Assembly: GCA_021157815.1 (NCBI GenBank)
Contig: JAGGVT010000099.1
Coordinates: forward strand, 1-14,547
Reading direction: 5' to 3'
DNA: 14,547 nucleotides
Source: a bacterium
Lineage (GTDB): Bacteria; JAJVIF01; JAGGVT01
This document shows positions 8,319 to 11,447 of the stretch, piece after piece; the stretch's first letter is position 1; each line of letters starts with the position of its first letter. Below the pieces are notes generated by a model. It was given only the letters and a program-made list of their open reading frames with translations, had not been told where the DNA came from and did no database searches. The position numbers and the translations under genes were made by a program.

Positions 8319-8470
8319 TGGATTCCGGGTCAAGTCCGGAATGATAAACGAATGTCATTCCGGCGAAAGGGCTGGTTGAAAAAGCTATATATGTAGGGGC
8401 AAACCTTGTGTTCGCCCCTACAGTAAGGGATAAAAAAGGCTTTTTCAACAGCCCAGAAAGCCGGAATCCA
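8319..8470. mobile_element. 152-bp nested palindromic element (MITE-like)
   Basis: There are four perfect or near-perfect stems. The outer arms TGGATTCCGG (8319-8328) and CCGGAATCCA (8461-8470) are perfect. Inside them are a hairpin CCGGAATGA/TCATTCCGG (8336-8344/8355-8363), then inverted repeats GGGCTGGTTGAAAAAGC (8369-8385) and GCTTTTTCAACAGCCC (8439-8454), with one extra G in the left arm. Inside those is TGTAGGGGC/GCCCCTACA (8392-8400/8414-8422). The GGGCTGGTTGAAAAAG ends recur at 10279-10488 around different contents, as expected of a mobile family lacking its own transposase. Confidence 0.75.
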
Positions 8471-8655: not shown

Positions 8656-9777
8656 ATGTCATCCGAAGAATACAGTTTTCGCGACGAATTGATGGAAAAG
8701 ATAAAGAACGGCGGCGATCTAAAGGGATTTGATTTCTCAGGCAGGTTTCTTCCTGGAATCAAATTTTACTATCGCCATAAAAAAGGCGAGGACCCGATCG
8801 TGCCTGACATGACAGGCGCGAATTTCTCCGGCGCGATGCTTCATAATTGCGATTTCCTCGATGGCAATCTTCAAAACGCGAATTTTGAGGGTGCGGATTT
8901 AAAAGGCAGCTATATTTTTGGCGCTGACCTTCGTGATGCGAACTTTACGAAAGCGTTTATTAACAACTGTCACATTTACGGCAGCAATTTAAACGGTGCC
9001 TGCTTAAACGAGGTAAAATGCCATGAATCGCTTGTAAGCGCGTGTGAACTAAACAAATGCGAGATGCTTGGCGCGGATTTCACAGGATCATCTTTCAAGG
9101 ACAGCAATATTGTGGAGTCGAACCTCGCATACTCCAATTTCACCGATGCCTACATGGAGGGCGCGCGGCTTGTCTATTCAAAACTCCGTAACGCGAATTT
9201 CACAAAAGCGGTTTTGTTCCGCGGTGATCTGGGCAAGGTGGATGCCCGTTTCGCGATTTTCAGAGGAGCTGTGCTTGGTAAGTATGACACTGAAGTAGGG
9301 CAGTTTTACGGCGCGAACATGGGACGCGCTGATTTCACCAACGCTGATTTCAGAAACGCTGAGCTTGTTGGAGTGAACATGCATTCCGCGATTGCCCATT
9401 CCGCCAATTTCAAAAGCGCGAATCTTCGCAGCGCTAACCTGTGTAACCTGAAAATCAACGAGAAAACCAATATGTTTGACGCAAACCTGGTCAGGGCGCG
9501 GATTAAAAACGTCGATTTCTCACGCCTGAGGCTTGGCGGAGCGAATTTGTTCGAGACTATGATTAATTTCGAGGAAATCCCGCAGTCAATCTGGGAGGAG
9601 CAGCAGGGTGATTTCATGCAGGCGTGGGAGGCGTACTCCCAGCTGAAAACCAATTTTAAATCGCTTGGAGACAGGCGCGGCGAACGGTGGGCATCCAAAA
9701 AGGAACGACGACTCCGTGGAGTTTGCAGACGGCTTATGCAGAAGAATCAGAGAGAAAAAGCGGTAGCGATGAAATAG
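8656..9777 (+). CDS. Pentapeptide-repeat protein with helical C-terminal tail
   Basis: I choose the ATG at 8656, which has GGAGGG just upstream; an in-frame ATG at 8614 lacks one and adds an unlikely hydrophobic start. The protein has 373 residues. Residues 1-50 form a capping segment. About 52-303 are tandem pentapeptide repeats of the A(D/N)LXX/A(N/D)FXX type, for example GANFSGA (54-60), NANFEGADLKG (74-84), GADLRDANFTKA (89-100) and RADFTNADFRNAEL (224-237), folding as a right-handed quadrilateral beta-helix. A helical tail with QAWEAYSQLKTNFKSLG (322-338) and ERWASKKERRLRG (343-355) resembles the conserved C-terminus seen in other pentapeptide proteins. There is no signal peptide or membrane segment, so it is probably cytoplasmic. 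Family roles vary (DNA mimicry, scaffolding, effectors); none is indicated here. Confidence 0.9.
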   Translation: MSSEEYSFRDELMEKIKNGGDLKGFDFSGRFLPGIKFYYRHKKGEDPIVPDMTGANFSGAMLHNCDFLDGNLQNANFEGADLKGSYIFGADLRDANFTKAFINNCHIYGSNLNGACLNEVKCHESLVSACELNKCEMLGADFTGSSFKDSNIVESNLAYSNFTDAYMEGARLVYSKLRNANFTKAVLFRGDLGKVDARFAIFRGAVLGKYDTEVGQFYGANMGRADFTNADFRNAELVGVNMHSAIAHSANFKSANLRSANLCNLKINEKTNMFDANLVRARIKNVDFSRLRLGGANLFETMINFEEIPQSIWEEQQGDFMQAWEAYSQLKTNFKSLGDRRGERWASKKERRLRGVCRRLMQKNQREKAVAMK

Positions 9778-9827: not shown

Positions 9828-9841
9828 TAAACAAATCAAAG

Positions 9842-9870
9842 AAACCCGGGAAAGGGCATTTCCCGGGTTT
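9842..9870 (+). terminator. Perfect 12-bp stem-loop terminator for the pentapeptide gene
   Basis: AAACCCGGGAAA (9842-9853) pairs perfectly with TTTCCCGGGTTT (9859-9870) around the loop GGGCA. The flanking A and T runs make it terminator-like, although the T-run after the GC stem is only three bases. The stem is the same CCCGGGAA/TTCCCGGG type as unit 1 of the 1390-1478 array. Confidence 0.75.
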
Positions 9871-9895
9871 CGCTGTTTGTTGATCCTGAAGTCCT

Positions 9896-9919
9896 GTAAC
9901 CCGGTTTCTCATGAAACTG
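9896..9919. repeat. GTAACCCGG-family hairpin
   Basis: An exact GTAACCCGG (9896-9904) leads into GTTTC-TCAT-GAAAC (9904-9917), extended by one G-T and one C-G pair (9902-9919). It is the third repeat of this family within 120 bp. Confidence 0.6.
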
Positions 9920-10129
9920 TCTTAGAACTAGTAAACATCTAGAAAATATCCTGTGAATATCTAACAATTTTGTGCTGCGGGCATCCTCTCGACTTTCGAC
10001 ATTTATTTGCTTTCTGTATTTTGTGGCTCTGGGCAATATGGTACGTTCATTGGAAAAGAAGCGACTTTAAATTCGGCTGTGTTTTTATTTGAGTGTAGTA
10101 AAACAACAAGATATCGAATTTATAAACCT

Positions 10130-10232
10130 CGGGTGCCGCCCACACATCACGTCTTTTTGTGATTTGTGGGTGAAATGCGTAACTTCGCTGCAAACACCCA
10201 TAAAGCCGGGACGGCTGTATGGGCGGCACCCG
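10130..10232. repeat. 103-bp multibranch palindrome inside the island
   Basis: CGGGTGCCGCCCA (10130-10142) pairs perfectly with TGGGCGGCACCCG (10220-10232). The interior folds into at least three further stems: ATCAC/GTGAT (10146-10150/10159-10163), TGGGTG/CACCCA (10167-10172/10195-10200) and AGCCG/CGGCT (10204-10208/10212-10216). This could be a structured RNA or a DNA cruciform element. I do not recognise an RNA family. Confidence 0.6.
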
Positions 10233-10278
10233 GTTTAATAGTATTTAGGTAGCCTTAAATGTCGAAAGTCGAGCTTTC

Positions 10279-10488
10279 GGGCTTGTTGAAAAAGGGATAG
10301 GTTTCAATGTAACCCGGAATGCCTTTATTAAAAAAACATGAATCAATTCTGCAACGTTCGCAGGCATTCCGGGGTTCCGCATAGATAGCCACTTCCCCGG
10401 CATGCCTGATTCACGTTATAGATAATTGTTGCTTTTGTCCGGGACGGCATGACCGGGCTACGGGGGAAATAGGCTTTTTCAACAGCCC
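10279..10488. mobile_element. 210-bp element with GGGCTTGTTGAAAAAG ends (MITE-like)
   Basis: Left end GGGCTTGTTGAAAAAG (10279-10294) and right end CTTTTTCAACAGCCC (10474-10488) are inverted repeats with one extra base in the left arm, exactly as in the 8369-8454 copy. Inside are two imperfect hairpins: AACCCGGAATGCC with GGCATTCCGGGGTT (10311-10323/10363-10376), and CCCGGCATGCC with GGCATGACCGGG (10396-10406/10446-10457). Both carry the GTA(A/G)CCCGG-type motif. Confidence 0.65.
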
Positions 10489-10537
10489 CCAGGATGCCCG
10501 CAGCACAAAATTACTGGTTATTTGTACATTTCAATTA

Positions 10538-10573
10538 ATTCTGAGTCGGGATATGCTTCGCTATTCTCAGAAT
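10538..10573. repeat. Small hairpin downstream of the STAS-receiver gene
   Basis: ATTCTGAG (10538-10545) and CTCAGAAT (10566-10573) form a perfect 8-bp stem with a 20-nt loop. It lies about 60 nt past the stop of the minus-strand gene and lacks a T-tract, so a terminator role is uncertain. Confidence 0.45.
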
Positions 10574-10631: not shown

Positions 10632-11447
10632 TTATCTCCATTTTGATCGTTTGTATTCCAGATCATCATTCTGGGTACCGAGCGCCATGTTTTTCTGCCA
10701 ACTGTAATACAGCGACAAAGCCGTCCGAACTCGAATGGGTGTTTCATAAGGGTTGAAAGGAAATCGAAGAATATCATCCGCTCCATTTTTAGTGTAGTAA
10801 GCGGCTTCGGGGAAGTGTTTTTCATCCGATGCGATTATAAACGGTATTCCTTTTAGATCACGATTCGTGCGTACCTTTCTTAGAAAATTATGCCCTTCAT
10901 TTTTGGCAATTGAAACATCTAAAATAACAAGTTGAATGTTCTTGCCGCAAAGTATTTTCCATGCCCTTGATGGATTCAAGGTGGTAACAATATTGTAATT
11001 GGCTTCCTGCTGCGTTTCCTTTAAAACATCGCGGAATCCATCGTGGATGTTAACCTGACCTTCAACAAGCAGAATATTCTCTCTTCTAGATGCTGTTTTG
11101 TTCTGTGTGAATGTGAAAAGAAGATTCGATGCCGTGGATCTGCTCTCGGCTACCGGCACCACCAATTCTGTTCTGGCAAGTTTAAGTACCTTTAATATAT
11201 GCGGCGTTGGTGAACACAACGCAACTTTAACCCCTTGGGACCTGATGTATTTAAACGTGTCCATGAAAGAGGATACGCCAACGGAGTTGATGTATTCAAC
11301 ACCAGACAAATCCAGTATCACGCCTGAACACAAACCATCCATGGCTTTGTCAAATCCAGGCATGGGAATTTTGGATCTTTCAGTAATCGAACCATAGTAT
11401 GACACTACCATTATAGCGCCATTTCTTTTTGCATGATGAGTAAACAT
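10632..11447 (-). CDS. STAS (anti-sigma factor antagonist-like) domain fused to a degenerate receiver domain
   Basis: The protein has 271 residues. Residues about 5-105 form a STAS domain: GVILDLSGVEYINSVGVSSF (42-61) corresponds to the SpoIIAA/RsbV strand and phosphorylation loop, with Ser55 in INSVG as the likely phosphosite. A linker leads to a receiver-like domain (about 123-245) with NILLVEG (124-130) and VILDVSI (174-180, Asp177 as phosphoacceptor candidate). Key receiver residues are altered: the usual acidic pair is E129-G130, and RFPFNP (228-233) lacks the conserved Lys of KPF. Phosphorylation by a histidine kinase is therefore doubtful. It is the natural partner type for the PP2C-HATPase protein at 1479-3356. 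GAGGAG lies five nt before the ATG. It is monocistronic and divergent from the large lipoprotein gene. Confidence 0.85.
   Translation of the reverse strand: MFTHHAKRNGAIMVVSYYGSITERSKIPMPGFDKAMDGLCSGVILDLSGVEYINSVGVSSFMDTFKYIRSQGVKVALCSPTPHILKVLKLARTELVVPVAESRSTASNLLFTFTQNKTASRRENILLVEGQVNIHDGFRDVLKETQQEANYNIVTTLNPSRAWKILCGKNIQLVILDVSIAKNEGHNFLRKVRTNRDLKGIPFIIASDEKHFPEAAYYTKNGADDILRFPFNPYETPIRVRTALSLYYSWQKNMALGTQNDDLEYKRSKWR

Follow-up and report, generated by a model that had tools for sequence, protein, structure and literature searches.

The island lies in the intergenic space between two converging genes of the window, the 14,547-nucleotide stretch of DNA that was analysed. The gene on the forward strand ends at 9777 and the gene on the reverse strand occupies 10632-11447. 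A separate terminator-like hairpin, AAACCCGGGAAA...TTTCCCGGGTTT, is found at 9834-9878, downstream of the forward-strand gene and upstream of the island. The nested palindromes described in the earlier note were all recovered by a repeat search. The outer arms, 9966-9987/10491-10512, are perfect over 22 bp within a 32-nt pair at 88%, the second pair, 9988-10005/10256-10273, gives 18 bp at 100% and the third, 10279-10294/10474-10489, is near-perfect at 88%. Inner hairpins exist at 10130-10146/10216-10232 and 10313-10324/10362-10373, and the order A-B-B'-C-C'-A' is correct. When the 547 nt were folded as DNA the energy was -126.6 kcal/mol against a mean of -70.6 for shuffled sequences (z = -10), and none of 100 shuffles was as good. 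No Rfam match at gathering score was found within the window.

The nest extends beyond the outer arms. A miniature element E (9916-10550, terminal repeats at 9916-9932 and 10534-10550, consensus ACTGTCTCAGAACTAAT) is the host of the A palindrome, and at 9898-9914 on the forward strand lies AACCCGGTTTCTCATGA, the left half of the hairpin CCCGGTTTCTCATGAGAAACCGGG that hosts E. This copy has lost the other half of that hairpin, while at locus L201 the arrangement is AGCCCGGTTTCTCATGAG-E-CTCATGAGAAGCCGGGCT. The left arm of A (9966-9987, forward strand) runs up to an insertion point between GGGCATCCT and GCCTGC, as seen from empty 84-bp copies of A with constant arm spacing. It is followed by miniature element B (9988-10273), which is bounded by terminal repeats CTCGACTTTCGACATTTA, occurs about 16 times in the genome and contains a branched palindrome D (CGGGTGCCGCCCA...TGGGCGGCACCCG, 10130-10232) that also has dozens of solo copies. 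The spacer between B and C, CTTTC at 10274-10278 on the forward strand, corresponds to the loop of another target hairpin, CCCGCTTTCGCGGG, and is a mismatched target duplication. Miniature element C1 (10279-10489) with IS1182-type terminal repeats GGGGCTGTTGAAAAAG comes next and then, after a cytosine at 10490, the right outer arm of A (10491-10512, reverse strand), the inner half of A being missing from the window copy. A second, clean case in the window is an 87-bp C-type element at 8369-8455 in the loop of the hairpin ATTCCGGC-GAAA-GCCGGAAT, with arms at 8357-8364/8460-8467 and GAAA as target duplication.

Independent modules and the IS1182 ends of C

When the whole genome was searched, parts of the island were matched 54 times, in nearly every case over a single module. 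The earlier note's reading of nested insertion depended on modules recurring on their own, and every module does recur separately and in different orders, and empty sites exist as well. The A module, REP-like and palindromic over 84 bp, is often empty; its arm TTTTGTGCTGCGGGCATC occurs 64 times at up to two mismatches (reversed control 0). Empty copies read ...GCGGGCATCCTGCCTGCATC-loop-GATGCAGGCAGGATGCCCGC... with a constant arm offset of 66 bp, other copies have inserts of 130-500 bp, and empty 84-bp palindromes adjoin filled ones bearing a duplicated ATCCT. C1 and two other interiors (131 and 190 bp) have the common ends GGGGCTGTTGAAAAAG, and GGSYTGTTGARAAA, an end of C type, is matched exactly at 191 places in the genome (reversed control 0). 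The C elements are 87-220 bp long, without coding capacity and present with about 190 exact termini; copy numbers are lower bounds, as the repeats break the draft assembly. Contigs C3, C4, C7, C43, C47, C103 and C208 have ends inside an element or about 250 bp or less from one. The D palindrome (about 103 bp) is found within B, within a further repeated context, ATGTTGATTCTTAAACATACTATTTT...CCCGACAGGCTC, or solo (loci L050-L079), and in several contexts its flanks lengthen the stem (AAACC/GGTTT). Searches of plasmids for A, of phages for the island and of viral contigs for the A-C junction pattern gave no match.

The family to which C belongs is indicated by a 995-bp decayed insertion sequence on contig C90, beside a copy of A carrying element C3, which has ends GGGGCTGTTGAAAAAGCCTATTATTTG... 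and fragments of an IS1182-family transposase. Its ends, GGGGCTGTTGAAAAAGCCTATT... and GGGGCTGTTGAAAAAGCC..., match those of C1, C2, C3 and C87. The transposase fragments matched PF05598, PF01609, PF13751 and NF033551, with PF13751 and PF05598 above cut-off; NF033551 was the best match (E 1.3e-32 and 1.2e-13 on two fragments) but, owing to the decay of the gene, did not reach the full-length cut-off. A second IS1182 remnant, on contig C56, starts in another hairpin arm. No intact transposase of the IS1182 group was found in the draft, which is 91% complete and consists of 221 contigs: a DDE_Tnp_1 search returned only the two IS1182 remnants, one unrelated copy and one sub-threshold match. When a collection of genome contigs was scanned with the transposase fragment, the only matches were weak ones to Neisseria. 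At locus L243 (contig C155, 7128-7703) there is an intact-looking transposase of 353 aa (PF01609/PF13751) with different ends, GGTACCGTTGCAAAA. The C elements would be deletion derivatives of the IS1182-family element, probably mobilised in trans by its transposase.

The earlier note had looked instead to an IS110-family mechanism. Elements of the IS110/IS1111 type use a DEDD transposase together with a guide RNA, and they are without canonical terminal repeats plus target duplications. In contrast, C has clear terminal inverted repeats and target duplications and its family is IS1182, so that the IS110/REP model is ruled out for C.

Insertion sites of C in hairpin loops

Within A, the junctions of C are GGGCATCCT-C-ATCCTGCCTGC or the mirror form GCAGGCAGGAT-C-AGGATGCCC, that is, ATCCT is duplicated in the loop of the half-palindrome. 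Other targets are CCCGC-TTTC-GCGGG, GCCGCAG-TAGC-CTGCGGC, CGGACA-GCCT-TGTCCG and CACCATGC-TTTA-GCATGGTG, and further ones unrelated in sequence are GCGGGCA-TCC-TGCCTGC and CGTAGGGTGGATTTAAAATCTACCCTACG; at least six unrelated hairpin sequences serve as targets. Empty sites were reconstructed by removing the element and one duplicate from each locus, and random positions of the same loci were used as the null. A hairpin score allowing only perfect stems understated the A-type targets, which contain a G-T or mismatch pair, and was replaced by a tolerant score. With this score 28 of the 37 reconstructed sites lay above the 95th percentile of the null and 22 above the 99th; nine did not exceed the 95% null. 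Flank complementarity at sites other than A was at or above the 99th percentile in 20 of 35. Many of the failing sites are tandem insertions, one-arm losses or decayed copies. The set is enriched for A and CCCGCTTTCGCGGG, many loci having been retrieved via A searches, so the sites are not independent. Reconstruction at many unrelated hairpins supports what the earlier note had proposed, namely that elements sit inside the loops of other hairpins through transposition targeted to palindromes.

The target duplication corresponds to the loop alone or to the loop plus one base pair, and both arms of the hairpin are kept. Counting full symmetric termini, a 4-nt loop goes with a duplication of 4 or 6 bp and a 3-nt loop with one of 5 bp. 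Most of these counts come from two target families, so that about eight hairpins give independent support, and the boundary is ambiguous by one base at most sites. The parity of the duplication thus tracks the size of the loop, as would be the case if the cuts were symmetric with respect to the hairpin axis. The flanks of six C-type insertions (L014, L102, L115, L250, L348 and L349) are inverted and not direct (CCCGCGAAAG-C-CTTTCGCGGG is one of them), which suggests recombination between copies or another insertion outcome.

The sample of the phylum consisted of four genomes, including the one studied here, and the comparison was made with two, G002 and G003, that belong to the same class but to another family. 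Both carry the same termini (17+17 and 5+5), on elements of 138-170 bp with duplications such as TTCCA or TGGAA and hairpins such as ATGTGC-TTCCA-GCACAT. Seven of 14 usable sites lay above the 95th percentile and seven did not, none lay above the 99th, and the stems are shorter than in the genome of the window. These sites may therefore be taken as support for hairpin targeting and not as proof of it.

Nesting of B and E and the window copy

B occupies the same A and CCCGC hairpins as C and adjoins C in about six places; on contig C146 (L201) it has ATCCT on both flanks. Some copies of E, the host of A, sit in the hairpin CCCGGTTTCTCATGAGAAACCGGG. The test of flank complementarity failed for B and for most copies of E because the flanks are other elements or are imperfect, and targeting of hairpins by B and E is only suggested. 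No transposase was identified for B or E. At L320 (contig C101, 3665-3937) a B-type end lies in the hairpin CCCGCGAAA and is followed by a different interior that runs to the end of the contig; this element is possibly the autonomous partner of B. A copy of B at L205 (contig C169) contains an insert of about 190 bp with an apparent 9-bp terminal repeat, starting GCGCTTCAATAAATTGTGTGGG, and a sequence like this insert truncates the insertion-sequence remnant on contig C56.

Nesting is recursive. The series at about 46.5-47.4 kb of contig C27 runs, from outside inwards, hairpin CGTAGCGC, C, hairpin GTAGGGGCGAAC, E, A and then element C3 with a further insert, and at one locus insertion has recurred through about five levels. 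The window has the junctions CATCCT-B-CTTTC-C1-CAGGAT, which do not match one another and derive from different target hairpins. The same A-B-C order is found on contig C146 with ATCCT at all three junctions, and on contig C27 (L322) with junctions consistent but for one base. Given the mismatch and the missing inner half of A in the window, and the consistency of the other two, the window nest must have been altered, whether nests recombined with one another or the assembler joined them wrongly. The latter would make it partly a chimera, loop insertion being real elsewhere but this exact nest never having existed; the many contigs that end inside repeats fit such an origin, as do the mismatched junctions and the loss of the inner half of A. 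However, contigs C146 and C27 indicate that nests of this order do form, and recombination in the cell would account for the mismatch equally well. An assembly chimera is unlikely, though far from negligible.

Proposed mechanism and comparison with known systems

The reading favoured here, with a probability of roughly 0.8, is that miniature non-autonomous elements transposed again and again into hairpin loops and so gave rise to the island, with C moving by means of an IS1182 transposase that reads hairpins. The transposase would recognise a short perfect hairpin whose stem is about 6-16 bp and whose loop is 3-4 nt, and which probably arises by cruciform extrusion or by folding of single-stranded DNA. 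If it cut at symmetric positions on either side of the axis, within the loop or one base pair inside the stem, the loop would be duplicated and both arms kept. Insertion could then be recursive because the elements and their REP-like targets themselves bear hairpins. Recognition of structure in vivo, this mode of cutting and cross-mobilisation are inferred, whereas the single modules, the empty and hairpin sites, the loop duplications, the ends shared with an IS1182 remnant and the recurrence in related genomes are observed. A broader proposal is held tentatively, at somewhat less than even odds: that this is a structure-guided system in which the IS1182-type transposase reads loops regardless of sequence, with cuts set by the axis so that the duplication varies in length with the loop, and in which the unrelated B, C and E converge on the same loops and bring in new hairpins, giving a self-renewing chain of landing pads.

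Recognition might instead be of a sequence motif common to the REP-like repeats, the palindromy being incidental, as with insertion sequences that occupy one REP. The A and CCCGCTTTCGCGGG families make up most of the sites and REPs are known as specific targets of insertion sequences (PMC1525189), but such recognition is improbable given at least six hairpins without shared sequence, the TTCCA/TGGAA hairpins of the related genomes, the absence of a common motif among the loops TTTC, ATCCT, GTAGCC, AGCCTT, TTTA and TTAAA, and the parity of the duplications. The earlier note's alternative of one large functional element, structured as RNA or DNA with its palindromes together by design, is very improbable in spite of the extreme folding and the site between converging genes, since the modules move separately and occur solo or in other orders and the 547-bp arrangement is not conserved (the only near-complete match, at 78%, has different junctions), and a single large structured RNA is ruled out by these separate movements and the lack of an Rfam match.

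Under the favoured reading of transposition into hairpin loops, insertion sequences that target REPs are a natural comparison. Each uses one REP family, recognised by sequence, and their own families are others, IS3 and IS110 among them. In the present genome IS1182-type ends enter several unrelated hairpins, although C shares with IS1397, ISPpu9, ISPpu10 and others the use of repetitive palindromes as targets (PMC1525189). The closest precedent is that of IS1272 and TnSha1, IS1182-family elements of staphylococci, which enter hairpins of unrelated sequence and whose authors infer recognition of structure (PMC5678879, PMC4923244). The transposase family is that of C and the hairpin targets lack a sequence consensus in both. 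However, IS1272 and TnSha1 delete the stem-loop partly or wholly without target duplication (PMC5678879, PMC4923244), whereas C keeps both arms and duplicates 4-6 bp at most sites, and the elements moving here are miniature (87-220 bp), numerous and nested. Duplication of the loop is drawn in PMC5678879 only as hypothetical pathway c, which the outcome for C matches. Entry of a mobile element into the palindrome of a miniature element, as here, is also seen with IS1111 in the QMITE2 palindrome of Coxiella (PMC10969869). The repeats resemble REPINs/RAYTs and bacterial MITEs in being short, palindromic, non-autonomous and intergenic (PMC3116915, PMC10969869), and A is REP-like in shape, but REPINs depend on a tyrosine transposase and C is tied to a DDE transposase. 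A term search of the MITE review found no mention of IS1182 or nesting.

Hairpin targeting by the IS1182 family was previously known mainly from the staphylococcal IS1272 and TnSha1, which destroy the target. The surviving hairpin and duplicated loop described here make a site reusable, so that nests can grow. The many natural sites in one genome and its relatives constitute a data set from which to read what the enzyme recognises (stem, loop size and cut positions). They bear on whether such hairpins form in living cells and may offer a lead for shape-directed insertion of DNA.
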